Source of the DNA: Bryoerythrophyllum caledonicum
Taxonomy: Eukaryota; Streptophyta; Bryopsida; Pottiales; Pottiaceae
Direction: 5' to 3'
Length of the DNA stretch: 64,000 nucleotides
NCBI GenBank assembly: GCA_963971425.1
Contig: OZ020524.1
Coordinates: forward strand, 18,603,845 to 18,667,844
Part shown: positions 3,435 through 58,800 of the stretch, piece after piece
Numbering within the stretch: position 1 is the first letter of the stretch
How the letters are laid out: each line of letters begins with the position of its first letter
The notes under the pieces: model-generated
What the model saw: only the letters and a program-made list of their open reading frames with translations
The model's database searches: none
Told to the model about the DNA's origin: nothing
Program-made: the position numbers and the translations under genes

Positions 3435-3490
3435 GGTGGAGAAGCCTAACCAAAAATGAAAAGAGGAGAAGTCAGGAGTAGAGACTTGTA

Positions 3491-34039: not shown

Positions 34040-34060
34040 GAAGACAAAGAAGAAGAATGG

Positions 34061-34079
34061 CGGTTCCCGAAGGGAACCG
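34061..34079 (-). ncRNA. 3' stem-loop of LINE copy M
   Basis: CGGTTCCC pairs perfectly with GGGAACCG around a 3-base loop, just before the TTC tail. Equivalent hairpins occur in the other two 3' ends (36994-37016 and 62549-62570) with different stem bases that still pair, so structure is being kept. In LINEs such 3' hairpins are recognised by the reverse transcriptase to start target-primed synthesis. Confidence 0.75.
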
Positions 34080-36938
34080 GGGTGAATAAAGTGTCTGTTC
34101 GTTCCATAGCTAAGACCATGCCCACCGGACAAGGAATTAGCGAACTGGAACTACTTCCCCCTTTCAAGGGTAGACACTATGTAACGAGTAGCCAGAAACC
34201 AACCAACAACGACCAACCACGACCAAACTAACTAAACATCAAAAAGCAAAACCAAACAGGCAGCCAATCAGGAAGAGACAGAGTGGGGAAGTTCCTAAGG
34301 GGGGTCTTGCCTATCAGGGAGGACTTGGTTGTTTTCAATTTTGCGTTTATGCAGTAAAATAGACATGGCATGTTGAATAGCGATGGTGTTGATATTTTTA
34401 AAGGTAGTTTTAATTGTATCAATGGGTATCTTGAAGGTATCTTCGAGAGTTTTCATAGATGGGATAAAGGTGGTGGCACGAGCGCCGGATGTGATAACAA
34501 TAAGGGGGTCCACATTCCAGCCGAGGGCAATGATGTCGTCTATGAGAGGTTGGTATTTATCTATTTTGTTTTGTATTGTTTCCGGGGAGAATCTATCGTT
34601 GCAATATGTAAATTCGATGAATTGAATGGTGTAGTCTTGGTTGATGTTCTCGGGTGGTGGGTCGTTGTATGGTAAACCTTTGACACAAAGAATGTCCGGT
34701 TTGAGCCTAGCGTTGCAATGACATCTTTGGGTCATACATGAGCATGGAAGTAGCCATGGGGGACCGTGTTTTCTTGTGGATTGTTATTAAAATTGCCGGC
34801 GTTCATAAGTATGAGACATCTCGATTTTTTGTAGGAGGTGATTAGTTTTCGAATTTCCCATACCGCTTTATTATGTCTTTTGATGATTAGAGAGTGAATG
34901 TGGTGGTTTTGGCATTTGAGTAGCACATGAAGCCATGTATCGGGGTCCGTTGAGGGGCATATGGGGCATGTTATGGATGGGAATCTTTCTATTCCAAAGA
35001 AGAGTTGTTTGCGAGCGTTTCCCATGTACTGACCCGTACGGAATTTGATGAGGCACGTTATTTGTGAGTCTGAGATGATGGGGTTTTTCCAAAAGTTTGT
35101 AGAGAGTTCATTGTCTATGTCGTTATTGTTAGTCCATTTTTCTATGTTAGGAATATTTTCTGAGATTGTATCCAGGTTGTTATAGAGGTTAGGCTTGTTT
35201 TTTGAGATATTTGCCCAGAAATCTAATTGGGCCTTTGTCGGGGGTATCTTCTTTGGAAGGCCATTCTTCTTTTTGAAAGTAGTATGGGGTGGCATGGGCA
35301 TGTTCGTGAGGGTCTTTGGCATTTTTGTGTGTTTTTTCTCGCCCTTCTTTTGCAAGTTTGTCTGCTTGTTCATTGCCATCAATGTTGGCATGGGCTCTGA
35401 CTTTGTGAAGGGTTGTGATTTGTGTACGTTTTTGTAACATTTGTACCATTGATGTTAGTATGGTTTGGTCGGGGTGACTATTGTGAAGGGTTGGGTGTGT
35501 TATTTGAGTGTTTAGTAGGTAGAGTGCATTTATACAATCGGTGAATATATGTGCGGGTTCATTGTTGTATTTTGTTGTGATAATTTGTAGTGTTTTGTGA
35601 ATGGCCATGAGTTCAGCTCTGAGGATATTTTGTAGGCCATGGAGTCTTTTGGCTAGTTTAATTTCTTTGGTAGAATTATATATGCCATAGCCAGCTTTTT
35701 CTCTTCGCCAAGAGCCCGGACTAATTTGTTCCGGTGGTTTAAAGGAGCCGTCGGTGTAATAACTGTATGCGGGGTTAAATTTTGGTGTGGTATGAATTGG
35801 GTAGTCTGGGAGAGGGGGAGGTATGACGGAGTAGTTTAATGTGTTGTTGTCATAGTTTAATTTTGACCATTTTTTACTGTTGTTTATGGGGGTTTGTATG
35901 GGTGTTGGTGGGGCCGGATTTGTGTATGGTCGTTGTATATTTAGATTGTCTGTTATGGAGGTAAGTTCCGCAAGTTGTTCTAGGGAGCCCAGGGTTTGAT
36001 TTTGATGATGGACGCATAGTATTTGTAATGTAGATGGCTCAGTTCGGGGTTTTTTTAGCTCGGGTGGGATAGTAGGTTCTTCGTATGGTATTGTGTCTGC
36101 TTCGAATAATGCAATGATGTGGGAATCTGGGAATGGGTTTGAATGTTGGTTGTTGTTTTGGTACCAATTGTTGTTCGGTGTGACGATGATTGTTTTTGTG
36201 TTATTTGGATCGTGTTTGGCGGCAAGTCTAGCCCAATGTATGGCTTGTTCGATGTCTTTCTCGTTGTGGGGGTGAGCTATTCCATTTCCGATCCATTTGT
36301 GTTCAAAGGCCTCGCCTAGGGATCCAAATATTTTGTCTCTTTCGTACGGTGAGTAGAATTTATTTAGTTTGGTAGGACATGTGATTGGGGAGGAAAAGTA
36401 TGAGTGTTCGATGTTAAAGGATGATATTAGTGAGTCTAAAATGGGGGTGGGTATTGTGTATTGCGCATTTTTGAGGGGGTCAATTTTTGGTATTCGATAT
36501 TTATATCTTTGGTAAAACCATATTAGTTCGGTTTCAAAGGGTTGGGTTGTTGGTTCAATGTTTGTAGGGGTATGCAATTTTGTATGATATTGGTTCCATA
36601 ACCATTGGAGCCGGGTAATGGGTATGGTGTGTAAATGTCGGCCGTTTTCTTCGTATAAATGTGCTTGATTGTTATCTATTTGAATTGTGTTTGAGGATGT
36701 AAGGATATCATTTTTGGGGTTGCATTCTGTCGTGTAGATTATTAAGAGTGGGATAATTATGGGTGGTGTTACGGACCTTGAGTCTGAGAATTGTTCTTGT
36801 GGATGGTGGGCAAGGATGATATCTGAGTATATTTTGTTTTGGATCTTTTGGTAGAATTGTTTTAATTTTTCAGTGTTATGTGTGGAGGTATTGGTGTCAT
36901 GCCGTGGAAAAAGGTCTCTTTGGGGGAGCCATTTATTG

Positions 36939-37045
36939 TATGTATTATCATGGGCATGGTCTTAGTAGTGGAACGAACAAACACTTTATTCACGCCGGCC
37001 TCCTACGGAGACCGGCGTTCTTCTTCTTCTTTTTATGTATTATCA
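36939..37045 (+). mobile_element. Tiny 5'-truncated LINE 3'-end insertion with 12-bp target duplication
   Basis: TATGTATTATCA occurs at 36939-36950 and 37034-37045. Between them, 36951-37033 is only the last 83 bases of this LINE family in plus orientation: GGGCATGGTCTTAGTAGTGG, GAACGAACAAACACTTTATT, the 3' hairpin (36994-37016) and a TTCTTCTTCTTTT tail. Copy P lacks the insertion at the matching place (near 48525), which confirms both ends. This is a classic target-primed insertion cut very short. Confidence 0.95.
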
Positions 37046-40000
37046 TTGTGTTGCCATTGGCATAGATATTTTGTGTAGGTATTTTGTATGTTATTTGTGT
37101 CTGTGTGTTGGATATGTTTATGGTTTATGATATTATTAATGGGGTATGTCGTAGGATTTTTGGGGATGTATGTTGGGGGGCGGGGGTGGTATGTATGTGG
37201 AGGGTTAGGGGGATTGGTTGGTGTGGGAATATTTCTTGGGATGATGTTATTGTTGAGGGTGATGAATGGATCTTTAAGTGTATGAGAGTATGGGTGTATG
37301 TTGCAAGGAGTATGACATATAGTGGGGCATGTTGGGTGGCAAAATAGTTGTTTAGCAACATTTAGGGCACTCTTTATTAGTTTAGATGGGGTGAAGTGGT
37401 AGGTTTTGAAGTCCTCATTGTTCATGATGTGTGTACCGTTAGGTAAGGTAATTTGGTTTAGTTCAAAAATATTTTTTGAGAGGAGTTTTTGTAGAAGCTT
37501 TTGGGAGAGTTGGGCATTGAGTGTCTTATGATTTAATGTTTCTTGGCGCCATAGTATTTCTAGTGTTGTAGGATTAGTGAGGAAGTTTGGGAGCGTACTT
37601 TTAAGGTGGGCTTTAGCAATATGTTTTAATAAGAAGAATGTTCGTGTTATTGGTGATCTTATGCAGTCACTTTTTTAAATTCTCGGTATGTTTTCGGCGC
37701 CACCATACTGGGCAAGGACATAGTGAGTTAATCCATTATAAATTTTCCCAAGTCTTCCTTTATCGTTTAAAGCATTTTGCAGTTGTTCGCCTATACATCG
37801 GAGGTATGCGTTTTTGAGGGAGAAAGCTTCAAGTCCAAATAGGTTATGTGGTAGTTGGGTTATTGCATTTGACATACATTTTGGTAATCCACATATGGTT
37901 TTTTGTATGGCTATTATTTTTTTGTCAAGTTTTTTGATAGCTGGCATAGAGTATGATACACCGTAGAAACTGTATGCCACACCTGGGCGTAGTACGGTAT
38001 CAACCATTTTTATTTTTTGTTTCATGGTGGCTGGGCATGTTGTTAGTTCTTTGCATTGTTTGATGAGTTTTGTCGTTGTGGTGTGGATTTGGATTTTCCA
38101 TTTTAGTGAGGGAACAAGGTTTGTGCCTAAGTATATGTATGGTTCATTTTGGTGTAGTATGGGGATCGGTTGATTGCGGTAATTGATGTTCGAGGCTTGC
38201 ATTAGGGCTTTGAAAGTGGTAGGGTTCAATTTGGATTTGTTTGGGCATCCGGTAGCGGCACATTTTGGGACACCTACGTCCATACCGGCCCATTTACAAT
38301 ATCTATCAATTTTGTTTAGTTGTATTTGGATTGATTTGATTTTGTTAGTTATGGTGGCTAGGTCATCCGCGTATGCGGCAGAGTTTATTATGACCTGTGA
38401 TGTGCCAAAAGTGTATCCGTAATTTCCTCTTTCTAGCCATCTGAGTAGTGGTTCTAGAAATATAATGAATAGGTATGGGCTGAGAGTATCCCTTTGTATA
38501 GTTCCTCTTTGGATGTGTATAGGTTTTGTTTTCCCAAAATGTTCACCGGTATAACATGTAGATGATTTAGAATAGATGTTTCCAACAAGTGTAGTTGCAT
38601 CTTTTGGGTAACCAAGGTCCATCATTATTGCTAGAAGTCGGGCATGGTCAATTGAGCCAAAGGCATTTTTGAAGTCCACGTATAATATGTATATATCTTG
38701 GTTAGTAAACTTAGCGTCTTCTAGTGCGGCTATTATAGTTTGTATTTGTCGTGCGGTACTTCTCTCTGCTCTAAATCCTTCTTGACTATCATGTAGGATT
38801 TTGAATTTTTCGCCGTATGAGGATAGTATGGAGGTGAGTATACTGGTAAAGAGTTTGTATATTGTGTTAGCTAGTGCAATTGGTCTATGGTTGGGTAGTA
38901 TGGACGGATCGCCTTTTTAATATAGTAGAATTGTTGTACTTAATTTCCATGAGTTTGGTATCTGTTTTTGTTTATAGCAGTGGGAGAAGAATAGAAATAA
39001 TAGCTTGTGAAATCTTGGAGGCATGTTTTTTAGTATTGAGTTTGGTATGCGGTCTGGGCCTCGGGCTTTATTATTTCCAAGATTTTGAAGGCATGTGTCG
39101 TATGTGGCTCTTTTGAGGTATTTATGTAGTGGAATTTCTGGTTCGCCCCGTTTGTCAAGGGTATATCCGTCCAGGTCGTGCCAAGGGTATTGGCGTATTG
39201 CACATGTGCATTCTATTGTATGTTGTGGCTGGTAATTACATGTTGGTATTGATGGTCTATTGGTTTTTGTTTGTTGGTTAAATATTTCATTCGCAATGTC
39301 TTCGGGGCTAGTTAGAGTATTATTATATTGATCTTTGATACAATCCATTGGTGGGGATTCAAGGTTTTTAAAGACTTTTTTGTTAATTTTTTTGGGGCTG
39401 ATTTCATATAGTTGTCTGTATTTTGAGATGGCATTATTAATGTTTTCTTTTGTGTATTTTGTGATTATTTTCCGGGCTTGTATGTTGGCATTTTTTGCAA
39501 TTATTGCGATATCTTTTATCCATGTATCGTGGGGAAGGTCCGGAGGCGGCGGGGTAGGGATTTGGATGTGTTGTATAGTTTGTAGTTCGTTGTGTATGGG
39601 GTGGTTACGCCATTGAGGGTTGTTTTTTACAATTCTAATGGTTTTACGCATGGTATGGTATGTGGTTAAGTGTTGTTTCTAAGTTTTAGAAAGTTTGCGG
39701 GGTAGATACCCGCCTTGTTGAGAGGTTCTGTTTGTCATTTGGGGTATTGGGTGTGCTCTACAAGTTTGTTCTAGTGTATCAAAGATTTTATTGATGAGTT
39801 TGTCTAGAGAGTGGCATGCTTCTTGCCATTGTGCTTGTGTTAATTGACTATTGTTTTCAAGAGTGTTTATGAGGGAGTCTATTTGTACGGAGTTTTCTTC
39901 GAAGAATTTTGTGTTGAATTTTTCTATGTTGGTTTTTGGAATGGGGTTGAGTATGCGTATAGTGTCTTTGATTGGGATTGTAGGAGTTCTACTAATTAGT

Positions 40001-41415
40001 GTGTTATTTGGGATGTGCAATTGTATAGGTGAGTGGTCCGAGTTGAGAATAATATCTTTGTTTGTTGTGGAGGTGCATTGTGTATTGTTGTTTGTATTTA
40101 TACAGAATCCATCTATTAGACTCCAATCACTATAATTGTAGCCACCTTGTCTAGAGAATTGTGTATCGGTATTGATGTAAGTGAAGTTTAAGTTTTCTGT
40201 GAAGCGGCGCCATTGGTAATCAGTGTTTTGAGGGGGGGTGTGATGGTTTCCATTTTGGCGGCCAATTAGCGCTATGTCTCTATTGAAGTCTCCACATAAT
40301 AGGTATGTATGATTGGGAAGATTATTAATATGAGATGTAATAGTGTTTTGTATATCTAAGAGAAATCTAGTATCTTCGGGATGGGATGGCATATACATGT
40401 GAAAGATTAACCACGGTTGTAGTGGGTGATTAGTAATTTTAATTATTTGAATGTATGGTGATATGTGCATTGGGGTAGGGATTTTGTTGATGTTGCCTGG
40501 GAATGTATATTTTTTGTGTATTAATGTAAGGAGGCCACCGCGGCCCGGTGTGTATGGTCTCTTTTGTTGCATGCATCTCGTAAGTGCATGTGTATTGTTA
40601 AAGATGAGTTTATAGTTTTGAAATATATTTTGTATATATTTTGTAGATTTTGTGGCGGTTAGTTTTGTTTCTTGTATAACTATAAGAGCCGGTGGTGTGT
40701 CTGTGTTTGTAACTAAAGTTTGTGAGCTAGGAAGGGCAGTGTTTAGTGAGGAGGCATTCCATGTGATTATGTATGTATTTTCTTGGTTTGGTCTAATGTT
40801 TTGATTTTGAGGAGGGATGTAGGGAAGAGGTGGGGGTGGGTGGGTGTATTCTGGTATAAGGTCTAGACATTTTAGTGATTCATTTATGAGGTTGTTAGGG
40901 AGGTAAGGGAATTTTAGTTTTATTATATCATTTGAGGGTGGTATGTCTTGACTATGTAAGAAGTCGTATAGTCTTTTATGTACTGAGTTCTCATGGTATA
41001 TAATATTTTGGTTGTCTACTAGGAATTTAGTATAGGGGTGTGGAATGTAAATGTGTCGTTCTGGTGGGTTTTGTAAGGTTAGTAAGGTTTGTAGGAGTGC
41101 ATTAGTCCATGTAATTGTATTCAAATTTTGTGGATTTAGAAGTTGGTTACATTCATCTATGTTTCGATGAGTAGTGATTATTAGTGCATATAAGATGTGG
41201 GGTGGTGGATGCGTATTTTTTTGTTGTATGTATTGGGCAATGTTTGGGTGGGAAGTCTTGTGTATGTGGTGTAATGTGTGTGTGTTTTTTAGAAATGGTG
41301 CGAAGGGTTTTGCAATGTGTTCATATTCTGGTTGGAGTTTTATGGTATTAGGTATAAAGTAGATTTTGGCATTTTTCTTATGTGATGTAGGATGTCTTTT
41401 TAGTATATTGGGCAT

Positions 41416-41460
41416 GGGTCCCGGGTTGATTTCAATGTCTCCTCCTAGAAGTAGTAGAAG
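41416..41460 (-). other. 2A-like ribosome-skipping peptide, LINE copy M
   Basis: Encodes LLLLLGGDIEINPGP followed at once by Met-Pro-Asn. The last nine residues fit the 2A consensus D-V/I-E-x-N-P-G-P, where the Gly-Pro bond is skipped during translation, freeing the upstream peptide and restarting with Pro. Family knowledge: 2A peptides occur near the N-terminus of some non-LTR retrotransposons (for example trypanosome L1Tc). Function here is inferred. Confidence 0.85.
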
Positions 41461-41917
41461 TTTGTGGTATATATGTTTAGTGGTGTATGAGTGTCTACCC
41501 TCGGGGGAACAAGAGATGTCTGAGAGTAGCTGAGAGCTCCGTATTTTCTGGTTAGGTGCAACAAAGAAGTTAGTCTCTGGGAAGAGGTGTGAGTGCAACG
41601 AAGGTGGCTGGATCCGTTGCATACCCCGCTCATAGCTCAGATCAGAGGCAATAGTGGGCTTTGAGAGTGGCGTTGTGTTGGACAGGGGTAGTAAAGGTCA
41701 GATCTAACCCTGGCATTCGAAATTTGAGCGATCTGAAGGTAGATTGGAGTGAGGGATGACCTGAAAGCACTGGGACCCTGTGTTGGCACTCGATCTAACT
41801 TCTTAGAACTCAAACACGATATACAGGTGTAGATCTAACTTGTGTTGGTTGTAACGCCCTAAGCCCACTTAGACTTCTTATACTGCTGCCCAACCCAGAA
41901 ACCATTACACATACGAT

Positions 41918-42529
41918 ATGAAGTCCACACACAGATTCGGGATAGCAGCGGCTCACACTGAAGGAGCCAACCAGCAGCGAGAACGAGATCTCAAGTCCAC
42001 ACGAGTGCAAGAGAGTGCAACCAAGTTACAGAACAGACGAGAGGAAACCGACGATCAAGGAAGTTCACATGACCTGAAGTGCATCCAAGTTCTGCAGCAA
42101 ACATCAGCCACAAAGAAACACACCAACAGCACGAAACCAAGCAGACAGCATTCCATCCCTGGAGTGCCCAGGTTCGATCTGACCTTACTTCATTTCAATT
42201 TATTTTTTGTCTGTTTATTAGTGTTTGATTTGTTTGCACATTATAGTATACCAATGATACAAAGAGATCTACACAGCACTCACACACTAGTAGCTACCTC
42301 CGACATCTTACATATCACCACACTCACATACACTAGATGTAGATCACCACAAGCTCACTATAACAACACGCACATAAAGCTCCACACTAGATCTCTGATA
42401 GAAAACCCTATTAAGCTCGTGTGTGTAGATCGCACGCGGAAGCGTTGGAAAATTTTCCCAGATCTAGATCTACCTGCACATCAGCAACAAAGACACACAA
42501 CATCAACACTGAAGAAAACGACACCTTGA
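41918..42529 (+). CDS. LINE copy P 5' ORF (ORF0-like)
   Basis: A 203-residue open frame starting MKSTHRFGIA. The DRTRKRWKIF stretch near residue 175 matches the 5' ORF of copy A, and the Thr/His-rich stretch before it is similar in composition and order. A hydrophobic run (LLHFNLFFVCLLVFDLFA, about residues 88-106) could be a membrane or signal-like segment, and copy A has a weaker one at the same relative place (VILYSAYSFYTIWI). The shared frame supports coding; function unknown. Confidence 0.4.
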   Translation: MKSTHRFGIAAAHTEGANQQRERDLKSTRVQESATKLQNRREETDDQGSSHDLKCIQVLQQTSATKKHTNSTKPSRQHSIPGVPRFDLTLLHFNLFFVCLLVFDLFAHYSIPMIQRDLHSTHTLVATSDILHITTLTYTRCRSPQAHYNNTHIKLHTRSLIENPIKLVCVDRTRKRWKIFPDLDLPAHQQQRHTTSTLKKTTP

Positions 42530-43019
42530 CAAGAGTGCACAAGAATGTGACGCAACGGCCAACAAATCCGTAACTCTATCCACATCACAACAAGACCTCA
42601 CAGCAAGATCGCAACATACAGCAACACCTCAACAGGGAGCAACCTACAGCAACTTCACACCAAGATTCGATCAAACGTAACGGAGGACCAAGATCCAGCC
42701 CGCGGCAACATAACAAGGAGCACACTCTACCCCTCCTCTCACAGTTCTTCCCCTTCTTGCATTCCTCACTCACCGCTCTCACCTTGCTTAAATCCTCCAC
42801 CTCTCCTCCATGTCCCCTCCCTCATTCTCACCACAGATTCCAAGCTCCCCCACCCAAGCCCCCGGCGCATTACTACAGACAGTCACCTGAATCGAACCCA
42901 AAGACCCCGACCCAACCCTCCTCAAACCCTCGCACTCACACAACTTCTCCCTGCGAACCTCTCCCCATAGCGACCCCTGGAACTCCCCTTGCGACCTACA
43001 AAACCTTGGTAGCAACCTT

Positions 43020-43985
43020 GTGAATCTTCATAGCAACCCCTGGAAATCCCCCTGCGACCTATCAATTGGTAGCAACAACCCCTGGAAATCCCCCTGCGAC
43101 CTACCAATTGGTAGTAGCGACCTCCCTAATCCCCCCTGCGACCTACCTAATTCCCCTAGCGACCTACCTAATTCCCCTTGCGACCTACCTAATCCCCCTT
43201 GCGACCTACCTAATCCCCCTTGCGACCTACCTAATCCCCCTTGCGACCTACCTAACCCCACTACCAATACATATACTGGTACGTATTCTGGTACGTATAT
43301 TAATACGAATACCGATACGAATACATATACTGATACATATACTGATACATATACTGATACGTATACTGATACGTATACTGATACGTATACTGATACATAT
43401 ACTGAAGTACATATTGGTACGTATATTGGTACATATACTGATTCATATACTGATATGAATACTGATATGAATACCAATACAAATACTTGTACGAATACTA
43501 ACACGAATACTTACACGAATACTGAAACGAATACCAAGACGAATATTTACACGAATACTCATACAAATACCAAGACGAATATTGAGGCACATACTAATAC
43601 GAACATACGAATGAATACAATTATAAAACCAAATACAACTACATATACACACACAAAGACAACCACACACCTTCAAAGAAACACATACATATACACACAC
43701 ACACACAAAGGCGAATACATACAATCGAAAAAGCACCAAAAAAAATACCAAAGCCACATACAAAAACAAAAAATTCCAAAACAAAACAATAAACCCACCT
43801 ACTACAAACTACTAATATTAATTGGAGGGGACATAAACACAAGGCCAAACACAACCAAAAAAAAATATAAACAAACACACACACACCTCTACACCATTAA
43901 TAAAACAAAAACAAGTACGCAAACAAACACATGGACACAAAAAAAAATTAAAGATAAATACAATTACATTCAAAAAAAATATTGA
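43020..43985 (+). CDS. LINE copy P Thr/Tyr/Asn-rich repeat ORF with decayed 2A-like motif
   Basis: An open frame of about 320 residues built on repeats. First come NPPCDLP/SPCDLP units from the 21-base array, then TDTY units from the 12-base array, then Thr/Asn-rich sequence with KTN and NTN units, and near residue 260 YYKLLILIGGDINTRPN. That last stretch resembles the 2A region (LLLLLGGDIETNPGP) with the NPGP part lost. It overlaps the start of the ORF2 open frame (from 43837) by about 150 bases in a different frame, so an upstream fusion or frameshift may once have linked them. The first codon of the open stretch is not ATG; no start is certain. Could also be low-complexity sequence open by chance. 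Confidence 0.4.
   Translation: MNLHSNPWKSPCDLSIGSNNPWKSPCDLPIGSSDLPNPPCDLPNSPSDLPNSPCDLPNPPCDLPNPPCDLPNPPCDLPNPTTNTYTGTYSGTYINTNTDTNTYTDTYTDTYTDTYTDTYTDTYTDTYTEVHIGTYIGTYTDSYTDMNTDMNTNTNTCTNTNTNTYTNTETNTKTNIYTNTHTNTKTNIEAHTNTNIRMNTIIKPNTTTYTHTKTTTHLQRNTYIYTHTHKGEYIQSKKHQKKYQSHIQKQKIPKQNNKPTYYKLLILIGGDINTRPNTTKKKYKQTHTHLYTINKTKTSTQTNTWTQKKIKDKYNYIQKKY
43137..43258 (+). repeat. 21-bp tandem array, LINE copy P
   Basis: About six units with the core GCGACCTACCTAAT followed by a C-rich spacer (CCCCCTT, CCCCTA). The last four are nearly identical, pointing to recent expansion. Confidence 0.9.
43262..43620 (+). repeat. ATAC-rich variable tandem array, LINE copy P
   Basis: Core at 43321-43403: about seven 12-base units ACTGATACATAT/ACTGATACGTAT, encoding Thr-Asp-Thr-Tyr. 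Flanks keep 6- and 12-base periodicity (AATACGA, AATACCA). Copy A has the homologous array at 395-720. Confidence 0.9.
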
Positions 43986-46900
43986 ATTTATAAACATCCA
44001 CCTCTCCCCAAACAAACAAGACCTCCATAACATAACAAAGCCCCAAAGAATTACAAAAAAAGAAAAAACATTAAAAAACAACACTAAACACACATATCAC
44101 AAACTCCTACTACTTCTAGGAGGGGACATAGAAACTAACCCAGGACCCATGCCTAATATACTAAAAAGACACCCTACTTCACATAAGAAAAATGCAAAAA
44201 TTTACTTCATATCTAATACCATAAAACTACAACCGGAATATAGACACATTGCAAAATCCTTTGCACCTTTCTTAAAAAACACACATACATTACACCACAC
44301 ACATAACAACACATATCCAAACATTGCCCGATACGTTCAACAAAAAAATGCGCATCCACCACCTCACATACTATATGCTCTAGTAGTCACTACCCATCCA
44401 CACATAGATGAATGTAACCATCTCTTAAACCCACAAAATCTGAACACAATTACATGGGTCAATACACTTCTACAAAACTTACTAAACTTACAAAATCCAC
44501 CGGAACGACACATCTACACTTCACACCCGTATACAAAGTTCCTTGAAGACAACCAAAATATTATAAACCATGAGAACTCAATACATAAGGAACTATATGA
44601 CTTTTTACACAGCGAAACAATACCTCCCTCAAATGAAACAATAAAAATAAAATTCCCCTACCTACCTAACAATCTCATCAATGAATCACTAAAATGTTTG
44701 GACCCTATACCAGAATACACCCACCCACCACCACCACTTCCCTACATCTCTCCGCAAAACCAAAATATTATATCAAATCAAGAAAATACATACATAATCA
44801 CATGGAATGCCTCCTCTCTAAACACTGCCCTTCCTAGCCTACAAACTTTGGTCACGCACACAAATACACCACCAGCCCTCATAGTTATACAAGAAACAAA
44901 ATTATCCGCCACAAAATCCACAAAATATATACAAAATATATTTCAAGACTATAAACTCATCTATAACAATACACATGCACTTACAAGATGCATTCAACAA
45001 CGAAGACCATACACACCAGGCCGAGGAGGTCTCCTTACACTAATACACAAAAAATATGCCTTCCCGGGCAACATCAACAAAATCCCTACCCCAATGCACA
45101 TATCACCTTACATTCAAATAATCAAAATTACTAATCACCCTCTACAACCATGGTTAATCTTTCACATGTATATGCCATCTCATCCCGAAGACACTAGATT
45201 TATCATAGACATACAAAACACTATTACTTCTCAAATTCATAATAACCCTAATCACACATACCTATTGTGTGGGGACTTCAACAGAGACATAGCATTAATT
45301 GGTCGCCAGAATGGAAATCATAACACCCTCCCTCAAACCATTGATTACCAATGGCGCCGCTTCACAGAAAACTTAAACTTCGTCTACATCAATACCGATA
45401 CACAATTCTCTAGACAAGGTGGCTATAATTACAGCGACTGGAGTCTAATAGATGGATTCTACATAAATACAAACAACAATACACAATACACCTCTACGAC
45501 AAACAAGGATGTTATTCTCAACTCGGACCACTCACCTATACAATTACACATTCCAAATAACACATTAATTAATAGAACTCCTACAATCCTAAAAAATGAT
45601 ACTATACGCATACTCAACCCCATCCCAAAAGACAATATAGAAAAATTCAACACCAAATTCTTTGAAAAAAACTCCATACAAATAGACTCCCTCATAAACA
45701 CTCTCGAAAATAACAATCAATTATCACAAGCACAATGGCAAGAAGCATGCCACACCCTAGACAAACTTATCAATGCAATCTCTGACACACTAGAACAAAC
45801 TTGTAAAGCCCAACCAATACCTCAAATGACAAACAGAACTTCTCAACAAGGAGGTTACTTACCCCGTAAACTTTCTAAAACTTGGAAACAACACCTAACC
45901 ACATACCATACTATACGGAAAACCATTAGAATTGTAAAAAATAACCCTCAATGGCGTAATCACCCCATATGCAACGAACTACTAACTATACAACACACCC
46001 AAATCCCTACCCCGCCACCTTCGGACCTACCTCACGATACATGGATAAAAAATATAGCACTAATTGCAAAAAATGCCAACATACAAGCCCGCAAAATTAC
46101 CTCAAAATATACCAAAGATAACATAAAAAAAGCCATTTCAAAATATAGACAACTATACGAAATTAGCCCCAAAAAAATTAACAGGAAAGTTTTTAAAAAC
46201 CTTGAATCCCCACCAATGGATTGTATCACAGACCAATACAACAATATTCTAACTAGTCCAGAAGACATTGCAAATGTAATATTCAACCAACAAACCAAAA
46301 GTAATAGACCAACAGTACCAACATGTAATTATCAACCACAACATCCATCTGAATGTACATGTGCAGTACGCCAGTACCCATGGCACGACCTCGATGGATT
46401 TATCCTTAACAAACAAGGCGAACCAGAAATCTCACTACATAAATACTTTAATATAGCCACATATGACACATGTCTTCACAATCTTGGTAACAACAAAGCC
46501 CCAGGCCCAGACCGCATCCCAAACTCAATACTAAAAAACATGCCCCCAAGATTCCATAAACTATTATTACTGTTCTTTTCTCACTGTTACAAACAAAAAC
46601 AAATACCTACGTCATGGAAATCAAGTACAACAATTCTACTAAACAAAAAAGGCGATCCATCTATACTACCCAACCATAGGCCAATTGCACTAGCTAACAC
46701 AATATACAAACTCTTCACTAGTACACTCACCTCTATACTATCCTCATACGGTGAAAAATTCAAAATCTTACATGATAGTCAAGAAGGATTTAGAGCAGAA
46801 AGAAGTACCGCTAGACAAATACAAACTATAATAGCCGCACTAGAAGACGCAAGATTTACAAACCAAGATATATACATACTATACGTCGACTTCAAAAACG

Positions 46901-48438
46901 CCTTTGGCTCAATGGACCATGCCCGACTACTAGCAATAATGATGGACCTTGGTTACCCAAAAGATGCAACTACACTTATTGGTAACATCTATTCTCAATC
47001 ATCTACTTGTTATACTGGTGAACATTTTGGGAAAACAAAACCTATACCTATTCAAAGAGGAACTATACAAGGAGATACCCTTAGCCCATACCTATTCATT
47101 ATATTCTTAGAACCACTACTCAGATGGCTAGAACGAGGCAACAATGGATACACTTTTGGCACATCACAAGTCACAATAAATTCTGCCGCATATGCAGATG
47201 ACCTCGCCGCCATAACTAACAAAATCAAATCAATCCAAATACAACTCAACAAAATTGATAGATATTGTAAATGGACCGGAATGGACGTAGGTGTCCCAAA
47301 ATGTGCCGCTACCGGATGCCCAAACAAATCCAAAATAAACCCTACCACTTTTAAAGCCCTTATGCAAACTTCCAACATCAATTACCGCAATCAACCAATC
47401 CCCATATTACACCAAAATGAACCATACATATACTTAGGTACAAATCTTGTTCCATCACTAAAATGGAAAATCCAAATCCACACCACAACGACGAAACTCA
47501 TCAAACAATGCAATGAACTAACAACATGCCCGGCCACCATGAAACAAAAAATAAAAATGATTGATACCGTACTACGTCCAGGTGTGGCATACAGTTTCTA
47601 CGGTGTACCATACTCTATGCCAGTTATCAAAAAACTTGATAAAAAAATAATAGCCATACAAAAAACCATATGTGGACTACCAAAATGCATGTCAAATGCA
47701 ATAATCCAACTCCCGCATAACCTATTCGGGCTTGAAGCTTTCTCCCTCAAAAACGCATACCTCCGTTGTATAGGTGAACAACTACAAAATGCCTTAAATG
47801 ATAAAGGTAGACTTGGAAAAATATATAATGGACTAACTCATTATGTCCTTGCCCAATACGGTGGCGCAGAAAACATACCTAGAATTAAAACAAGTGACTG
47901 CATAAGATCACCGATAACACGAACATTCTTCTTATTAAAACATATAGCTAAAGCCCACCTTAAAAGTACGCTCCCAAACTTCCTTATTAATCCTACAACA
48001 CTAGAAATACTATGGCGCCAAGAAACACTAAATCATAACACACTCAATGCCCAACTCTCCCAAAAGCTTCTACAAAAACTCCTCTCAAAAAATATTTTTG
48101 AACTAAACCAAATTACTATACCAAACGGCACACAAATCATGAACAATGAGGATTTCAAAACCTACCACTTCACCCCATCCAAACTAATAAAAAGTGCCCT
48201 AAATGTTGCTAAACAACTATTTTGCCACCCAACATGCCCCACTACATGTCATACTCCTTGCAACATACACCCATACTCTCATATACTTAAAGATCCATTC
48301 ACCACCCTCAACAATAACATCATCCCAAGAAATATTCCCACACCAACCAACCCCCCTAACCCTCCACATACATACCACCCCGCCCCCCAACATACATCCC
48401 CAAAAACCCTACCACATATCCCATTAATAATATCATAA
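43837..48438 (+). CDS. LINE copy P ORF2 N-terminal part: 2A, APE endonuclease, reverse transcriptase
   Basis: Open frame with no ATG until 44149, immediately after the 2A peptide. The 1429 residues counted from that Met contain an APE-type endonuclease (WN at 219-220, QETKL with Glu 249, GDFN with Asp 376, SDH at 459-461) that nicks target DNA, and a reverse transcriptase (LYVDFKNAF with Asp 914, RGTIQGDTLSP, YADDLA with Asp 1017-1018) that copies the element RNA at the nick. A Cys/His cluster (CHPTCPTTCHTPC) lies near residue 1360. It ends where a one-base deletion in a run of C near 48377 shifts out of the frame that continues to RNase H; copy M keeps the longer C run and reads through. APE and RT motifs look intact. 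In the family the frame presumably continued, giving a protein near 2,050 residues. Confidence 0.9.
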   Translation, partial: TQGQTQPKKNINKHTHTSTPLIKQKQVRKQTHGHKKKLKINTITFKKNIEFINIHLSPNKQDLHNITKPQRITKKEKTLKNNTKHTYHKLLLLLGGDIETNPGPMPNILKRHPTSHKKNAKIYFISNTIKLQPEYRHIAKSFAPFLKNTHTLHHTHNNTYPNIARYVQQKNAHPPPHILYALVVTTHPHIDECNHLLNPQNLNTITWVNTLLQNLLNLQNPPERHIYTSHPYTKFLEDNQNIINHENSIHKELYDFLHSETIPPSNETIKIKFPYLPNNLINESLKCLDPIPEYTHPPPPLPYISPQNQNIISNQENTYIITWNASSLNTALPSLQTLVTHTNTPPALIVIQETKLSATKSTKYIQNIFQDYKLIYNNTHALTRCIQQRRPYTPGRGGLLTLIHKKYAFPGNINKIPTPMHISPYIQIIKITNHPLQPWLIFHMYMPSHPEDTRFIIDIQNTITSQIHNNPNHTYLLCGDFNRDIALIGRQNGNHNTLPQTIDYQWRRFTENLNFVYINTDTQFSRQGGYNYSDWSLIDGFYINTNNNTQYTSTTNKDVILNSDHSPIQLHIPNNTLINRTPTILKNDTIRILNPIPKDNIEKFNTKFFEKNSIQIDSLINTLENNNQLSQAQWQEACHTLDKLINAISDTLEQTCKAQPIPQMTNRTSQQGGYLPRKLSKTWKQHLTTYHTIRKTIRIVKNNPQWRNHPICNELLTIQHTQIPTPPPSDLPHDTWIKNIALIAKNANIQARKITSKYTKDNIKKAISKYRQLYEISPKKINRKVFKNLESPPMDCITDQYNNILTSPEDIANVIFNQQTKSNRPTVPTCNYQPQHPSECTCAVRQYPWHDLDGFILNKQGEPEISLHKYFNIATYDTCLHNLGNNKAPGPDRIPNSILKNMPPRFHKLLLLFFSHCYKQKQIPTSWKSSTTILLNKKGDPSILPNHRPIALANTIYKLFTSTLTSILSSYGEKFKILHDSQEGFRAERSTARQIQTIIAALEDARFTNQDIYILYVDFKNAFGSMDHARLLAIMMDLGYPKDATTLIGNIYSQSSTCYTGEHFGKTKPIPIQRGTIQGDTLSPYLFIIFLEPLLRWLERGNNGYTFGTSQVTINSAAYADDLAAITNKIKSIQIQLNKIDRYCKWTGMDVGVPKCAATGCPNKSKINPTTFKALMQTSNINYRNQPIPILHQNEPYIYLGTNLVPSLKWKIQIHTTTTKLIKQCNELTTCPATMKQKIKMIDTVLRPGVAYSFYGVPYSMPVIKKLDKKIIAIQKTICGLPKCMSNAIIQLPHNLFGLEAFSLKNAYLRCIGEQLQNALNDKGRLGKIYNGLTHYVLAQYGGAENIPRIKTSDCIRSPITRTFFLLKHIAKAHLKSTLPNFLINPTTLEILWRQETLNHNTLNAQLSQKLLQKLLSKNIFELNQITIPNGTQIMNNEDFKTYHFTPSKLIKSALNVAKQLFCHPTCPTTCHTPCNIHPYSHILKDPFTTLNNNIIPRNIPTPTNPPNPPHTYHPAPQHTSPKTLPHIPLIIS
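44116..44148 (+). other. 2A-like ribosome-skipping peptide, LINE copy P
   Basis: Encodes LGGDIETNPGP directly before the ATG of the APE-RT frame (Leu run from 44104). The D-I-E-x-N-P-G-P core is a full 2A consensus match. A hydrophobic Leu run just upstream is also usual for 2A peptides. Whether it acts in this copy is unclear because no upstream ATG is in frame. Confidence 0.85.
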
Positions 48439-50601
48439 ACCATAAACATATCCAACACACAGACACAAATAACATAAAAAATACATACACAAAATATTTA
48501 TGTCAATGGCAACACAATGATAACACATACAATAAATGGCTTCCCCAAAGAGACCTATTTCCACGACATGACACCAACACCTCCACACATAACACAGAAA
48601 AATTAAAACAATACTACCAAAAAATTCGAAACAAAACATACTCGGATATCATCCTAGCACACCACCCCCAAGAACAATTCTCAGACTCAAGATCCGTAAC
48701 ACCACCCATAATTATCCCTCTCTTAAACATCCACACAACAGAATGCAACCCCGAAAATGATATCCTTACATCCTCAAACACAATCCAAATAGATAACAAT
48801 CAAGCACATCTATACGAAGAAAATGGCCGACATTTACACACCATCCCCATTACTAGACTCCAATGGCTATGGAATCAATACAATATAAATTTACAAACTC
48901 CTACAAACATCGAACCAACGACCCAATCCTTTGAAACCGAAATAATCTGGCCATACCAAAGGTATAAATACCGAATACCAAAAACTGACCCCCTAAAAAA
49001 TGCACAATACACAATACCCACTCCCATCTTAGACTCATTAATCACATCCTTTAATATCAAACAAGCATACTTTTCTTCCCCGGTCACATGTTCTACCAAA
49101 CTAAAAAAATTCTACTCACCTTATGAAAGGGATAAAATATTCGGATCCCTAGGAAAGGCCTTTGACTATAAATGGATTGGTAAAGGTATAGCTCACCCCC
49201 ACAACGAGAAAGATATGGAACAAGCAATACATTGGGCTCGACTTGCCGCCAAACACGATCCAAATAACACAAAAACAATCATCGTCACACCGAACAACAA
49301 TTGGTACCAAAACAACAACCAACATTTAAACCTATTTTTAGATTCCCATATCATTGCAATATTTGAGGCAGACACAATACCATACGAAGAACCTACTATT
49401 CCACCCGAACTAAAAAAACCCTGAATCGAGCCATCAACATTACAAATACTATGCGTCCATCATCAAAATCAAACCGTAGGTTCCCTAGAACAACTTGCCG
49501 AACTTACCACCATAACAAACAATTTAAACATACACCGAATATACACAAAATTGGCTCCACCAACACCCATACAAACCCCAGTAAACAAAAGTAAAAACTG
49601 GTCCAAACTAAACTATGTCAACAACACATTAAACTACTCCGTCATACATCCCCCTCTCCCAGACTACCCAACTCATACTACACCAAAATTTAACCCCGCA
49701 CACAGTTACTACACTGACGGCTCCTTTAAACCACCAGAACAAATTAGCCCGGGTTCTTGGCGTAGAGAAAAAGCTGGCTATGGCATATATAATTCTATCA
49801 AAGAAATTAAACTAGCCAAAAGACTCCATGGCCTACAAAACGTCCTCAGAGCAGAACTCATGGCCATTCACAAAACACTACAAATCATCACAACAAAATA
49901 CAAAAATGAACTTGCACATATATTCACCGATTGTATAAATGCACTCTACCTACTAAACACTCAAATAACACACCCTACCCTTCACAATAGCCACCCCGAC
50001 CAAACCATATTAACATCAATGGTCCAAATGTTACAAAACCGTACACAAATCACAACCCTTCACAAAGTGAGAGCCCATGCCAACATTGACGGCAACGAAC
50101 AAGCAGACAAACTTGCAAAAGAAGGCCGAGAAAAAACACACAAAAATGCCAAAGATCCACACGAACATGCCCATGCCACCCCATACTACTTTCAAAAAGA
50201 AGATTGGCCTTCCAAAGAAGATACCCCCGACAAAGGCCCAATTAGATTTTTGGGCAAATATCTCAAAAAACAAGACCTCTACAACAACCTTGACACAATC
50301 TCAGAAAATATTCCTTACATAGAAAAATGAACTAACAATAATGACATAGACAATGAACTCTCTACAAACTTTTGGAAAAACCCCATCATCTCAGACTCAC
50401 AAATAACATGCCTCATCAAATTCCGCACTGGTCAATATATGGGAAACGCTCGCAAACAACTCTTCTTTGGAATAGAAAGATATCCATCCATAACATGCCC
50501 CATATGCCCCTCAACGGACTCCGACACATGGCTTCATGTTCTACTCAAATGCCAAAACCACCACATACACTCTCTAATTGTTAAAAGGCATAATAAAGCG
50601 G
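48420..50601 (+). pseudogene. LINE copy P ORF2 middle part: RNase H and CCHC/RHN knuckle, cut by the LTR element
   Basis: Continues ORF2 in the frame offset by the upstream one-base loss. RNase H motifs: YTDGSF at about 49711, AELMAIH, FTDCINAL, and RAHANIDGNEQADKLAKEG near 50069-50127. Nonsense changes sit at 49422 (a CGA to TGA relative to copy M, a CpG transition) and 50328 (TGG to TGA). The knuckle CPICPST-x-W-x-H-x4-C and IVKRHNKAV (50490-50600) resembles the CCHC plus RHN unit that precedes the endonuclease in R2-type LINEs. The LTR element enters directly after RHNKA(V). Confidence 0.85.
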
Positions 50602-50885
50602 TGTCGTGTAAAGAAACGGTTTAATATGTAAATACAGTGTGAAATGGATTGAGAGTAGTGTTCAGAGCAAATAGAAATAAAACTAAGAAAAATAAAAGTA
50701 TAGACAAAAGGGAGGGGGGGAGATCAGAGGAATGAAGGGGGAAGAGAAAGGACCGTGGTTTTAACTACGAAACTTAGAGTCTCTGCATCTTCTCACATGC
50801 TCAGGGGGGGTAGATGGCGCCAATTGGTAGTTTCCTGCCTAGTTTTCACTAGCAGTGCCAAGCCACGTGGCCATTCGCATGCTCA

Positions 50886-54192: not shown

Positions 54193-54195
54193 GGC

Positions 54196-55707
54196 ATGAA
54201 GAGATTGATGGAAGAGAAGTTGGGGAGGAGCAATACTTCACGTGGGAAGGAAATAGAGACCTACACGATTGGAGCTGATTTTAGCACAATCCAAGCTTCT
54301 ACTTATGCATCTAAAGAGGTGATGGTCAGGGGAGCACAAACCATCAGAAGGTTGACTGGGTGGGATGATCCAGTGAATGCTACTACCATCAGAGCCTATT
54401 TTATGAGTGAGAATGGGGAGAAGGAACCCCATGATGCATCAGTGGAAGTGAAGAGGGGCAGGGCTGTTGATGAAGGTGAATCTGAAGAGCCTGCAAACAA
54501 GAAGAAATCATTAAGCAACAAAGATGCATCTTCAAAGGAAGGACCAGCAACCAACACAAGGCAAAGGCAAGAGTCACCACCATATCCAGGTGAGAATACA
54601 CATTTACCCAAAGACAAGTGGGAAGAAAGAATGGACAACAAAAAGGGAAAAGGAAAGGAGGATGAAGCTAAGGGAAAGAGTAAGACGCCAGCTTATAAAC
54701 TCCAATCCGATATTGAATCTTCAGTGGATATGAAGGGCATTTTGGAAGAAAGAATTTTGGATGCCAAGATAGAGTTTACTCTTAGAGAGGCTCTTGGCAT
54801 AGCAAAGAAAGATTTCCATGAGCTTATCATTGATGTGATCAAAAGGAAGAGGCAGATGACAGCTGAAACAGTGATGACAAGGGCATTGGATACTTTGATG
54901 TCTAAAGAAGAAGAAGAGGAGATTGGACAAGTGTTTGCCTTGAGCTGTGATAATGCAGGGAATGATGACCAGACTAAAAGACAGAGATTTATGTCTCGGG
55001 AAACCCAAGATACCAAGGTTGATGTCATGGAGGAGGTTTTGAGTGATGAGGAGGAAGATGAAGTGTTGCAGATGTTTTTGAGTGATGGAGTGGTTGAGAC
55101 AAAGGAGAGGAAGGATTCTATCAAGAATCAAAGGAAAATTGTCACAACAGAAGCCAAGGTTTTACGATGTGGAGCTGACAAGTCATGGAGACATGATAGT
55201 GAAGCCTTGGTAGCATTTACACATCCATTTTGGGCAAGAGCTACCACAGAGACACGTGTAAAGATTGGAGATATTGAGGAGCCAATCTTAGCATTGGTGG
55301 ATCATGGCTCAGAGATCAACATTTTATCCCGGAAGATTTATGAGAAGGAAAAATGGCCAATTGACACCAATCATGGATGGGTATTGAAAGCTGCCAACAA
55401 TGAAAGAGGCAACCTTTATGGAGCATGTCCAGCAGTGGCCATAAAGATTGGTGATGTGGAGGTGGAGCAAAACTTCTTTGTGCAAAATCAAGGAAGTTAT
55501 CCCATCATTTTGGGACAGCCATATATCACTGCAACAAGGATGGAGACCAAGGTATTGGATGATGGCTCACATTATGCCAGGATTCGTAGCCATGATGGTA
55601 TGAGATCTGTTCAATTTCTCACAGTTAGACCAAATCATGAGAGACATAGGGACAGACTCAGGGAAACTCCGATGGACTATGTCCATGAAGATTTTCTGGA
55701 TTTCTAA
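54196..55707 (+). CDS. Protease-containing region of the Ty3/Gypsy element
   Basis: An open frame of about 500 residues. A charged, Lys/Glu-rich linker of some 330 residues is followed by a retropepsin-like domain (ALVDHGSEINILS, then YPIILGQPYI). It follows gag closely and would be made together with gag by a read-through known in such families. Confidence 0.8.
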   Translation: MKRLMEEKLGRSNTSRGKEIETYTIGADFSTIQASTYASKEVMVRGAQTIRRLTGWDDPVNATTIRAYFMSENGEKEPHDASVEVKRGRAVDEGESEEPANKKKSLSNKDASSKEGPATNTRQRQESPPYPGENTHLPKDKWEERMDNKKGKGKEDEAKGKSKTPAYKLQSDIESSVDMKGILEERILDAKIEFTLREALGIAKKDFHELIIDVIKRKRQMTAETVMTRALDTLMSKEEEEEIGQVFALSCDNAGNDDQTKRQRFMSRETQDTKVDVMEEVLSDEEEDEVLQMFLSDGVVETKERKDSIKNQRKIVTTEAKVLRCGADKSWRHDSEALVAFTHPFWARATTETRVKIGDIEEPILALVDHGSEINILSRKIYEKEKWPIDTNHGWVLKAANNERGNLYGACPAVAIKIGDVEVEQNFFVQNQGSYPIILGQPYITATRMETKVLDDGSHYARIRSHDGMRSVQFLTVRPNHERHRDRLRETPMDYVHEDFLDF

Positions 55708-55802
55708 ATTGCACACGTGGAGTATGGGGTGCCACGGGTGCAAAAAAATCATCTACTGTTGCAAGCCCCAATGTACAGAGGAGTGGATACAAGGTTTGGA
55801 AT

Positions 55803-58800
55803 TTGACAAAGGATGGATTTATAAGTTTCGAAAAGGTTGAAGATTTGGATTCTATGAAGAGAGGATTGACCAAGAAAATGGAAAGAAAATTAAAAAGAGT
55901 TGGTGTGATTTTAATTGACGAGTTTATTTCTGGAGTTGTTGAAGAAGAAGGATTTTCAGATGATATTTTACAAGTTTTAGAGTCCTTGCAAAGAGAAGTC
56001 GGTGAGTCTACTACTATGACAGTGGAGATTCATTCGAGAAGCTTATATGAAGAAATATTGAAGGTAGCTGATGAAGTAAGGTTGGTTGGGAGTTATGGCT
56101 TGGAAACGGAGGCAATGGTGAACACCAAGTATAAAACTGTAGCAAAGAAGGTGAAGCCTGTGGCATCACAATTACCACTAGACTCTGAAGATCATATTAG
56201 AAAGGCTGAGGAGGAGCCTGGATTGAGGGAGACAAGAAAAATTGGACACAATTTCACAAAAGAGACATTGGCCAAGCTAAAGATTGGAGGGGGTGAGTTT
56301 TTGAAAGAACCTGAGAAGATAAGGTTCCGAGAAATGATCTCTAAGCATGGTAAGGCTTTTGCTTCTTCACCAGATGAGATTGGATGTGTTAATCCAAAGA
56401 TTGTAGCTCCAATGGTCATTTTTACAGTTCCACATGTGCCTTGGGATTTGAAGCCAATTCCCGTGCCAAGAGCCTTGCTACCTAAATTGGTGAGTCTATT
56501 GAAGGAGAAGATACAGATGGGAATACTTGAACCATCTATGGCTCCATACTCTAACCGATGGTTCACAGTGCCAAAAAAGTCTGGGGCTTTAAGGTTTATC
56601 CAAGACATGCAGCCAGCCAACAAGGTGACAATCAGAAACAAAGGGTCAGGACCAATTGTGGATGAGGTTGCTGAGGCTTTTGCAGGACATGCCATCTATT
56701 CTATTGGAGATCTTTATTCAGGCTATGATCAATTTCAACTTGCATCAGAAAGTAGAGATTTGACAACTATGAAGACTCCATTGGGACTTATGAGGATGTG
56801 CACATTACCTCAAGGCGCTACTAACTCTGTAGCCCATATGCAGAGTGCCATGAACCAAATCTTGAGGGAGTTTGTGCCTGAGAAGACTATTCCTTTCGTA
56901 GATGACATACCTATCAAAGGTTGCAAAGAAGAGGTCAAAGACTTGACAGAAGATGCTGATGGATGTAGAAGGTTTGTGAAGGATCACATTGAAGATGTGG
57001 AGAAGATCTTAAAAAGGCTTGAAGAAGTGGATTTAACCTTATCCCTTGAGAAGTCCAAGTTTGGAGTAGATGAGATTGTGGTGGTTGGACACTTGTGTGG
57101 AACTTATGGAAGAAAACCTAACCCTGAGAAGGTTGATGCTATTGCTAGGATGAAAGCATGTGGAAGCATCACTGAAGTAAGGAGGTTTTTAGGAGCTTGT
57201 GTCTTTTATCAGATTTGGGTTCCTCATTTTGCTCACATAGCTGAGCCTCTATATAAGTTGTTAAGAAAAAGGACCAAGTTTAGGTGGGAGCATAAGCAAG
57301 AGCTAGCCATGGAGAGTCTAAAGGAGATTTTGAAGTCACCACCAATCTTGAGGCAAGTTGACTATGATTGCAACAGACCAGTTGTTGTTACTGTTGACAC
57401 AAGTCCAATTGCTATTGGTTGGGCTATTGGCCAAGATGAAGCAGAAGGTAAAAGGTTTGCCATCAGATTTGGAGCAAGAATTCTCACGGATAGACAAAGA
57501 GCATATCCACAAGTGAAGAGGGAGTTTTTGGGGGCACTTACAGCTATGAAGGCAGACAGAAATTACTTAATTGGAGCCAATGTGGTATTGGAAACTGATT
57601 GCTTACCATTGTTGGGAATGGTTGCTAATTGTTCAACTCCTGATATTGCCATGTTGAGATGGATAGCCTACATCAGATCACTCAATCCTATCTTAATGCA
57701 CATCTCTGGCAAGAAGAATTCTGTGGCAGATATGCTATCTAGGGCTAGATATATCTGTGAAGAAGAGATGGAAACGCAAGAGATTGGTGAAGAGGAAGAA
57801 GATGAGGGCTATGGATATGTGCAAGCTATTGATGGAGCGAGCATAAGTGATGAAGACCAAGCTTTCAGAGAAGATCTTTATAGAGGAAAATTAAGAGACA
57901 TTGGCATCTATTTAAGTACCATGAAGAGACAAGAAGGTTGGTCAGATAAGGCCTTTAAAGGCATTCGACACCAATCTTATAACTATATCTTAAGAGATAG
58001 TTTCTTATGGAAGAGGCCAAAGAGGAAGGATGGAGTTCCATTGAGAGTGGTGGATGATGAAGAAACCAAGAATCAAATTCTCAAAGAGTTTCATGATACA
58101 CTTTGGGCAGGCCATCGAGGAGTTTGGGCCACTTACCATAAGATTAAAGAGAGATATTGGTGGAAAGGCCTTTACAAGGATGTAGAGGAATTTGTGGCTT
58201 CTTGTATTGAATGTCAATTACAATCCAAAGTCAGATACAGAGATGAGTTGCATCCTACCTATCCAGTTGCTATGCATTTTCAATGGGTGATTGACTTGGT
58301 AGCTATGCCATTGGGATTGTGGGGCATGAAGTATCTTGTTTTGGCAAGAGAAGAGCTTTCAAACTATGTCGAAGGTAGAGCTTTGAGGACCAAGACCACG
58401 AAAGGAGTAAGCAGATTTATCTTGGAGGATATCTTCAGCAGGTATGGCAGTATTGGAAGGATGAGGGCTGATAGAGGAGAATTGGATGCAGCAGAAGCCA
58501 GAGACTTTTTTCAGAGGTATGGTGTGCGCTTGAAGCTAACTACTGCATATAATCCCGAGGCTAATGGCAAAAGTGAAAGAGGACATCCTCCCATTATCAA
58601 TGCTCTTGTCAAAGCTTGTAGAGGTAAACAAAAGCAGTGGCCAAGACTTCTACCATTTGCATTATGGGCTGATAGAACCACTCATAGTACTCTTACAGGT
58701 TATATGTCCATTGAGTTGATGTTAGGCCAAAAGCCACTTATGCCTACAGAGGATTCAATACCAACTTGGATGTTGTTGGACTGGAACGATGGCATTACAA

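Follow-up and report, generated by a model that had tools for sequence, protein, structure and literature searches.

How ORF2 is translated from the bicistronic RNA of a LINE is a long-standing question. Non-LTR retrotransposons that carry 2A (StopGo) peptides were reportedly described by Heras 2006 and Odon 2013, namely L1Tc/ingi of trypanosomes and APE-type elements of the sea urchin and other animals. The element analysed here, from the moss Bryoerythrophyllum caledonicum, is like these in that the 2A is in frame with an APE/RT protein, but it differs in its green-plant host, in an RNase H and a PCIF1_WW-like segment, in tandem superseded 2As, and in related families where the 2A is preceded by a long linker and by an ORF1 that is read in a different frame.

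A 2026 survey (PMC12846837) describes a viral L-rich (LLLLSG-like) StopGo class, one motif of which is active in vitro. Its order of a Leu-rich run, a small residue, Gly and DIExNPGP resembles the Leu-rich context found here (Leu run, small residue, Gly, Asp), although those sequences are viral whereas ours belong to a retrotransposon; the same survey reports no evidence of natural StopGo use by plant viruses. Retroviral Gag-Pol and the cardiovirus TMEV share with our element a -1 frame between structural-type and enzyme ORFs, and TMEV pairs StopGo with -1 frameshifting (PMC5009743). There, StopGo comes first and the shift after; here, we propose a shift first, with StopGo separating the products and without a canonical slippery heptamer. 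Dualen/RandI non-LTR elements, which combine APE with a restriction-like endonuclease (PMC4640811), have APE, RT and RNase H in common with the moss element, which also has a KPDI...IEF...K C-terminus and differs from them by the 2A, the linker and the -1 arrangement of ORF1. UAAUG coupling in SART1 likewise ties ORF2 expression to the ORF1 stop, whereas here no AUG lies at the stop and a 2A parts the products (PMC5972666). In the open-access literature, searched by titles and the beginnings of abstracts, we found neither a 2A in a plant LINE nor a LINE that combines frameshifting with a 2A; the key LINE-2A papers lie outside that search.

The 2A peptide and its conservation

The window, by which we mean the whole stretch of 64,000 nucleotides, carries two copies, P and M, of the LINE:

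41512-44094, plus strand: 5' part of copy P, a leader with TNT/DTYT low-complexity coding repeats and undetectable ORF1
43800-43850, plus strand: decayed 2A-like sequence YYKLLILIGGDINTRPN within the ORF 42891-43985, about 98 codons upstream of the copy P 2A
44095-44148, plus strand: 2A (StopGo) peptide of copy P, YHKLLLLLGGDIETNPGP (18 residues), core at 44125-44148
44149-50602, plus strand: ORF2 region of copy P, with AP endonuclease, RT and then frameshifted 3' parts
41416-41469, minus strand: 2A of copy M, YHKLLLLLGGDIEINPGP, core DIEINPGP, followed by ATG
34047-41486, minus strand: ORF2 of copy M, with AP endonuclease, RT, PCIF1_WW-like domain and RNase H; frameshifted, about 90% identical to an intact copy

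In copy P the ORF2 Met (ATG, 44149) is the codon directly after the 2A, and the predicted skip point falls between Gly (44143-44145) and Pro (44146-44148). Both 2As stand 5' of AP-endonuclease and RT coding sequence. An earlier note on this DNA had placed the 2A core in both copies directly before the ORF2 Met, and the sequences at 44095-44148 and 41469-41416 agree with this. Its statement that only residue x varies holds for copies P and M and not across families, whose Leu run differs (LLLLLGG, ILILLSG, IAILLCG, TLLLQSG). The 2As of the element satisfy the StopGo core consensus (D/G/C/N)(V/I)ExNPGP. The context of active StopGo sequences, L-rich and ending in (A/S/C)G before D, is fitted by ILILLSGD and IAILLCGD and nearly so by LLLLLGGD of the window, in which Gly replaces A/S/C. 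The core DNA pattern has two exact sites in the window and three at up to two mismatches, the latter compared with 0.17 expected.

Copy M and copy P are arranged head to head, with about 25 bp between them (41486-41512). The window further holds a gene encoding a plant organelle RNA recognition domain and, at 54193-59264 on the plus strand, an LTR-retrotransposon-like element with DUF4100, RT, RNase H and integrase domains.

Across the 437-Mb assembly (894 contigs), the core DNA pattern yielded 883+838 = 1,721 matches, versus 2 for a reversed-pattern control, and the pattern with the adjoining ATG yielded 870+815 = 1,685, versus 0. The degenerate pattern admitted Asp or Glu at core position 3 and Ile, Val or Met at core position 2; among the matches listed, a subset that lies entirely on contig C1, Glu is present in all and Ile in all but one, while third bases and x vary. 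The assembly also contains two differing plastid-type rbcL sequences (contigs C590, C821 and C894), so that a second organism may be mixed into it. The best PDB matches of these genes are plant-type Rubisco large chains, the top ones presumably from land plants. Together with the organelle RNA recognition gene, they point to a streptophyte host among the green plants.

Loci were picked through the protein encoded 3' of the 2A, so that selection was not conditioned on the motif. The NPGP core is unchanged in most of these loci: D-I-E-x-N-P-G-P is kept in 57 of 60 loci (L012-L041 and L044-L073; exceptions L012, L069 and L073), a redundant set in which one core sequence is common to 28 and three members are query copies with a motif known beforehand (L013, which is the window copy; L044; L059), leaving 54 of 57 without them. 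On contig C1 below 34.24 Mb, where coordinates were compared by hand, the exact pattern lies one codon before the protein match in 33 of 39 places, or 30 of 36 without the three that are query copies.

The earlier note had proposed comparing the 2A with neighbouring codons. Among distinct sequences, the nonsynonymous share of codon differences is 0.28 in the 2A block, compared with 0.91 in the block 26-19 codons upstream and 0.63 in the Leu-run block 18-11 codons upstream. The six downstream blocks range from 0.25 to 0.78, and one of them, 17-24 codons past the Met, equals the 2A in conservation. A conservation ranking on 11 non-redundant rows was set aside as biased, at least five of them coming from the 2A-selected set. 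A conserved 2A in a LINE of the plant lineage is thus well supported at the level of sequence.

Superseded 2As offer a natural control, being altered in the core where the ORF2-adjacent one is intact. The upstream 2A of the window family, which reads GGDINTRPN, shares the frame of the downstream 2A in the intact copy and is one base off frame in copy P. Locus L078 carries three successive 2As, ELEINPGP, DMETNPRP and DIETNPGP, and in both tandem cases the core is intact only in the last, which adjoins ORF2. Peptide-bond skipping at the native 2A very probably takes place. That the motif is instead a relic or serves another role without skipping, for instance as a conserved N-terminal tail of ORF2, is highly improbable: the equal conservation of codons 17-24 does mean that conservation by itself is not peculiar to the 2A, but the core residues match StopGo, differences between families fall on the free position x, there is variation among synonymous codons, and the superseded tandem 2As have changed in their core.

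ORF1, the linker and their reading frames

Two families, B and C (L044-L075), contain a conserved ORF1 upstream of the 2A. The ORF1 end was located in 27 of these 32 loci, corresponding to 26 places as L057 and L075 are one copy; L045 and L066, whose ORF1 end could not be aligned, were set aside, and L046, L054 and L063 have no ORF1 match. Relative to ORF1, 22 of the 27 loci (21 of 26 places) have the 2A in the -1 frame, and in 19 (18 of 26 places) that frame has no stop between a point 18 nt inside ORF1 and the 2A. Exceptions are five of the 27 loci that are not -1 and three more (L053, L059 and L070) that are -1 but not open; these may represent decay or true counter-examples. From coordinates alone, with each ORF1 paired to the nearest downstream ORF2 match within 6.5 kb (spacings 1.2 to 4.0 kb), 14 of 19 pairs, including L076, are -1, three are in phase 0 and two in phase +1. 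Three of the 14 have one common spacing and are probably a single subfamily; owing to the shared ancestry of the copies, none of these locus counts are independent.

No Pfam domain was matched significantly by ORF1. Its predicted structure (mean pLDDT 46.5) combines a region of beta-alpha-beta-beta-alpha-beta order, modelled at pLDDT 68-88, with a long C-terminal helix, and in Foldseek it matched RRM proteins (best E 1.8e-06), single RRMs at a TM of about 0.75 of the target.

The layout of an ORF1 followed by a -1 linker recurs in a third, related element at the left of the window:

1989-3554, minus strand: ORF1 of the third element, ending in SKLPAPGDPTNVD and a stop; it shares about 31% identity with those of L074 and L075
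1-1988, minus strand: its linker, with no stop anywhere in the frame that is -1 to its ORF1
150-97, minus strand: decayed 2A-like sequence YYKLLLLIGEDKGNKTKK in this linker

The -1 phase is retained across families with very dissimilar linkers, whose open stretches are between about 140 and about 1,360 codons long. Before the repeat tracts, L057, L048, L062, L065, L067 and L074 have no stop in the -1 frame and 3-14 in each of the others; the decayed copy L070 has four in the -1 frame. L076, which belongs to another family and has a linker of 1,280 nt, shows 0 stops in the -1 frame, compared with 22 and 13 in the others. In L078, whose ORF1 ends in MDQSN and a stop in the frame one ahead of that of the 2A, the 2A frame is open across all 1,405 codons of the locus upstream of the Met, and the other frames of the locus contain 135 and 132 stops. 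This openness makes translation of the linker frame a well-supported reading.

Tracts of (CAA)n/(AAC)n, encoding polyQ or polyN and in some cases more than 100 residues long, occur in the linkers of L048-L051, L060, L062, L067 and L074. Their lengths differ between near-identical copies, mostly without effect on the frame, since the repeat unit is one codon. Chance openness from such repeats was rejected as an explanation of the open linkers, given the stop-free pre-repeat stretches of the six copies above and the linkers of L076 and L078, which are not CAA tracts. Removal of the linker by splicing is unlikely, because an intron need not remain stop-free in one frame.

The earlier note had suggested that ORF2 may be released from an upstream protein by skipping. 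Its core stands: a conserved 2A before the ORF2 Met, in a frame that reaches far upstream, indicates that ORF2 is probably freed from an upstream translation product. A single-frame ORF1-2A-ORF2 polyprotein is rejected for the ORF1-bearing families, where ORF1 lies in a different frame. As ORF1 terminates at a stop of its own and the 2A is read in the -1 frame relative to it, a frameshift, a stop-coupled restart or a separate initiation is needed as well. The further suggestion that skipping replaces reinitiation is plausible, although reinitiation directly at the ORF1 stop retains a small probability.

Routes into ORF2

In the 27 copies inspected, as in L078, ORF1 ends in GTCAAAC followed by TAA or TAG; in L076 and the third element of the window, it ends in CAAACGTGGAT followed by TGA. 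With synonyms allowed for the Asp, Ser and Asn codons, the pattern of the ORF1 end occurs in 322 places and its reversed control in none. The Asn codon has changed from AAC to AAT in three of the 322 and the Asp codon from GAC to GAT in 88, changes that are not independent events as the copies are related by descent. The AAC-to-AAT change is synonymous in either frame (in the -1 frame, Leu CTA becomes TTA), whereas GAC to GAT is nonsynonymous in the -1 frame, so that coding alone predicts the opposite of these counts. They point to an RNA-level constraint on the ORF1 end (GTCAAAC|UAR).

A canonical XXXYYYZ slippery heptamer is absent from the conserved G UCA AAC, of which the AAAC half alone fits. 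The stability z-scores of nine windows starting at the ORF1 stop range from +0.1 to -5.6; five are below -2 (-5.6, -3.5, -2.9, -2.8 and -2.3) and the other four are not. The stem-loops after the stop are small or differ between families, and a strong conserved stem-loop as a stimulator of shifting is, with high stability in five of nine windows, not established. Families B and C carry, about 35-45 nt after the ORF1 stop, an A+T palindrome such as AGTATAYATATATACT (VYIYT in the 2A frame), a potential small hairpin.

We propose that ORF1, with its predicted RRM and long C-terminal helix, is translated first and that some ribosomes would then move to the -1 frame at its end. The most likely site would be GUCAAAC|UAA/UAG, where tRNA-Asn would slip from AAC to AAA with the stop codon in the A site. 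Shifted ribosomes would read the fast-changing, stop-free low-complexity linker, as its openness suggests, and skipping at DIExNPG|P would release the ORF1-linker product, with ORF2 made separately and starting Pro-Met-Pro-Asn. The net effect would be Gag-Pol-like frameshifting with StopGo in the place of the protease. To this reading as a whole, a -1 shift near the ORF1 stop, translation of the linker and StopGo freeing ORF2, we assign a probability of roughly 60%. For the entry step taken separately, we lean towards -1 frameshifting over stop-coupled restart or internal initiation. The fuller version, two successive recoding events (a -1 shift at the non-canonical GUCAAAC|UAR and then StopGo) together with a fast-changing linker that grows as old linkers and dead 2As accumulate in it, has about even odds.

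Alternatively, StopGo may work while the linker-2A-ORF2 frame is initiated independently of ORF1, at a linker AUG or near-cognate codons, by leaky scanning, an IRES or reinitiation; the 2A would then trim a variable polyQ/polyN-rich leader and give ORF2 a constant N-terminus. An in-frame AUG is present in family B, 74 codons upstream of the 2A end, and linker AUGs also occur in L074, L076 and L078, so that initiation within the linker is possible; many linkers, moreover, carry (CAA)n tracts. Seven of the 19 open loci, however, have no Met between the ORF1 stop and the 2A, the frame is open into ORF1, the -1 phase is kept despite very different linkers, and this route does not explain why AAC is constrained at the end of ORF1. 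We regard it as unlikely.

Independent initiation also draws on the window's own subfamily, where the first AUG to open a long ORF in the intact copy, at codon 477, is in the ORF2 frame. This copy (L042+L043, contig C1) has a single 3,087-codon stop-to-stop frame that includes the 2A, followed by a 2,340-codon ORF2 from the Met. In L042, 476 stop-free and Met-free codons (1260-2687) precede the AUG, and the other two frames contain 35 and 26 stops over nt 890-2687. ORF1 was undetectable in this one intact copy examined, so that the upstream product of the window subfamily would be the low-complexity leader alone. The subfamily appears to have lost ORF1, judging from this copy, and translation probably starts at an AUG within the leader; here, the 2A would simply strip the leader off ORF2. 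An antisense match to the region where ORF2 starts (nt 465-875) lies just before the 5' end of the C1 copy. Over the main match, copy P shares 97.6% identity with the C1 copy but is frameshifted, and copy M is truncated at its 5' end, about 16 codons before the core. Among the 140 matches listed, 33 share an open frame of 3,087 codons exactly and are 99% identical to the query, and hence the family was probably active recently.

A stop-coupled restart, in which ribosomes terminate at the ORF1 stop, resume there in the -1 frame in a SART1 UAAUG-like manner without an AUG, and translate on to the 2A, is quite improbable. The -1 phase and the conserved ORF1 end fit it equally well, precedents exist in SART1 and LINE-1 (PMC5972666), and UUG or AUA in the -1 frame overlaps or adjoins some of the stops. 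Against this, no AUG spans the ORF1 stop in the sequences inspected, the near-cognate candidates are not common to all, and the openness inside ORF1 is unexplained, even if it amounts to merely about 18 nt in some families.

ORF2 domains and significance

In the 2A-bearing ORF, the AP endonuclease lies upstream of the RT, whose PDB sequence scores are at best 98 bits for R2 and 64 bits for LINE-1, and RNase H (PF00075) is encoded as well. The part of ORF2 that separates RT from RNase H holds a PCIF1_WW-like domain (Pfam PF12237, E 5e-10 and 5e-12), located at 35189-36961 on the minus strand of the window and at 6501-9998 in L042. We take PCIF1 to be a cap-related methyltransferase; no retrotransposon encoding a PCIF1 domain came up by title or abstract opening in the open-access literature searched. 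By eye, the C-terminus of ORF2 is conserved as KPDI...IEFTYC...K (L043 102-620; window 61765-62331, plus strand, and 34298-34783, minus strand). This KPDI...IEF...K segment resembles, on our reading, a PD-(D/E)xK or restriction-like endonuclease motif. It has no significant Pfam or PDB sequence match, and its structure model (mean pLDDT 38) is too poor for fold comparison. The combination of an AP endonuclease with such a motif would suggest membership of the Dualen/RandI group.

The genome has dozens of copies with long intact frames, and their pattern predicts a specific two-step route of ORF2 translation. If this is true, StopGo is used naturally in the plant lineage, and the element may supply a new kind of frameshift site together with native plant 2A peptides.
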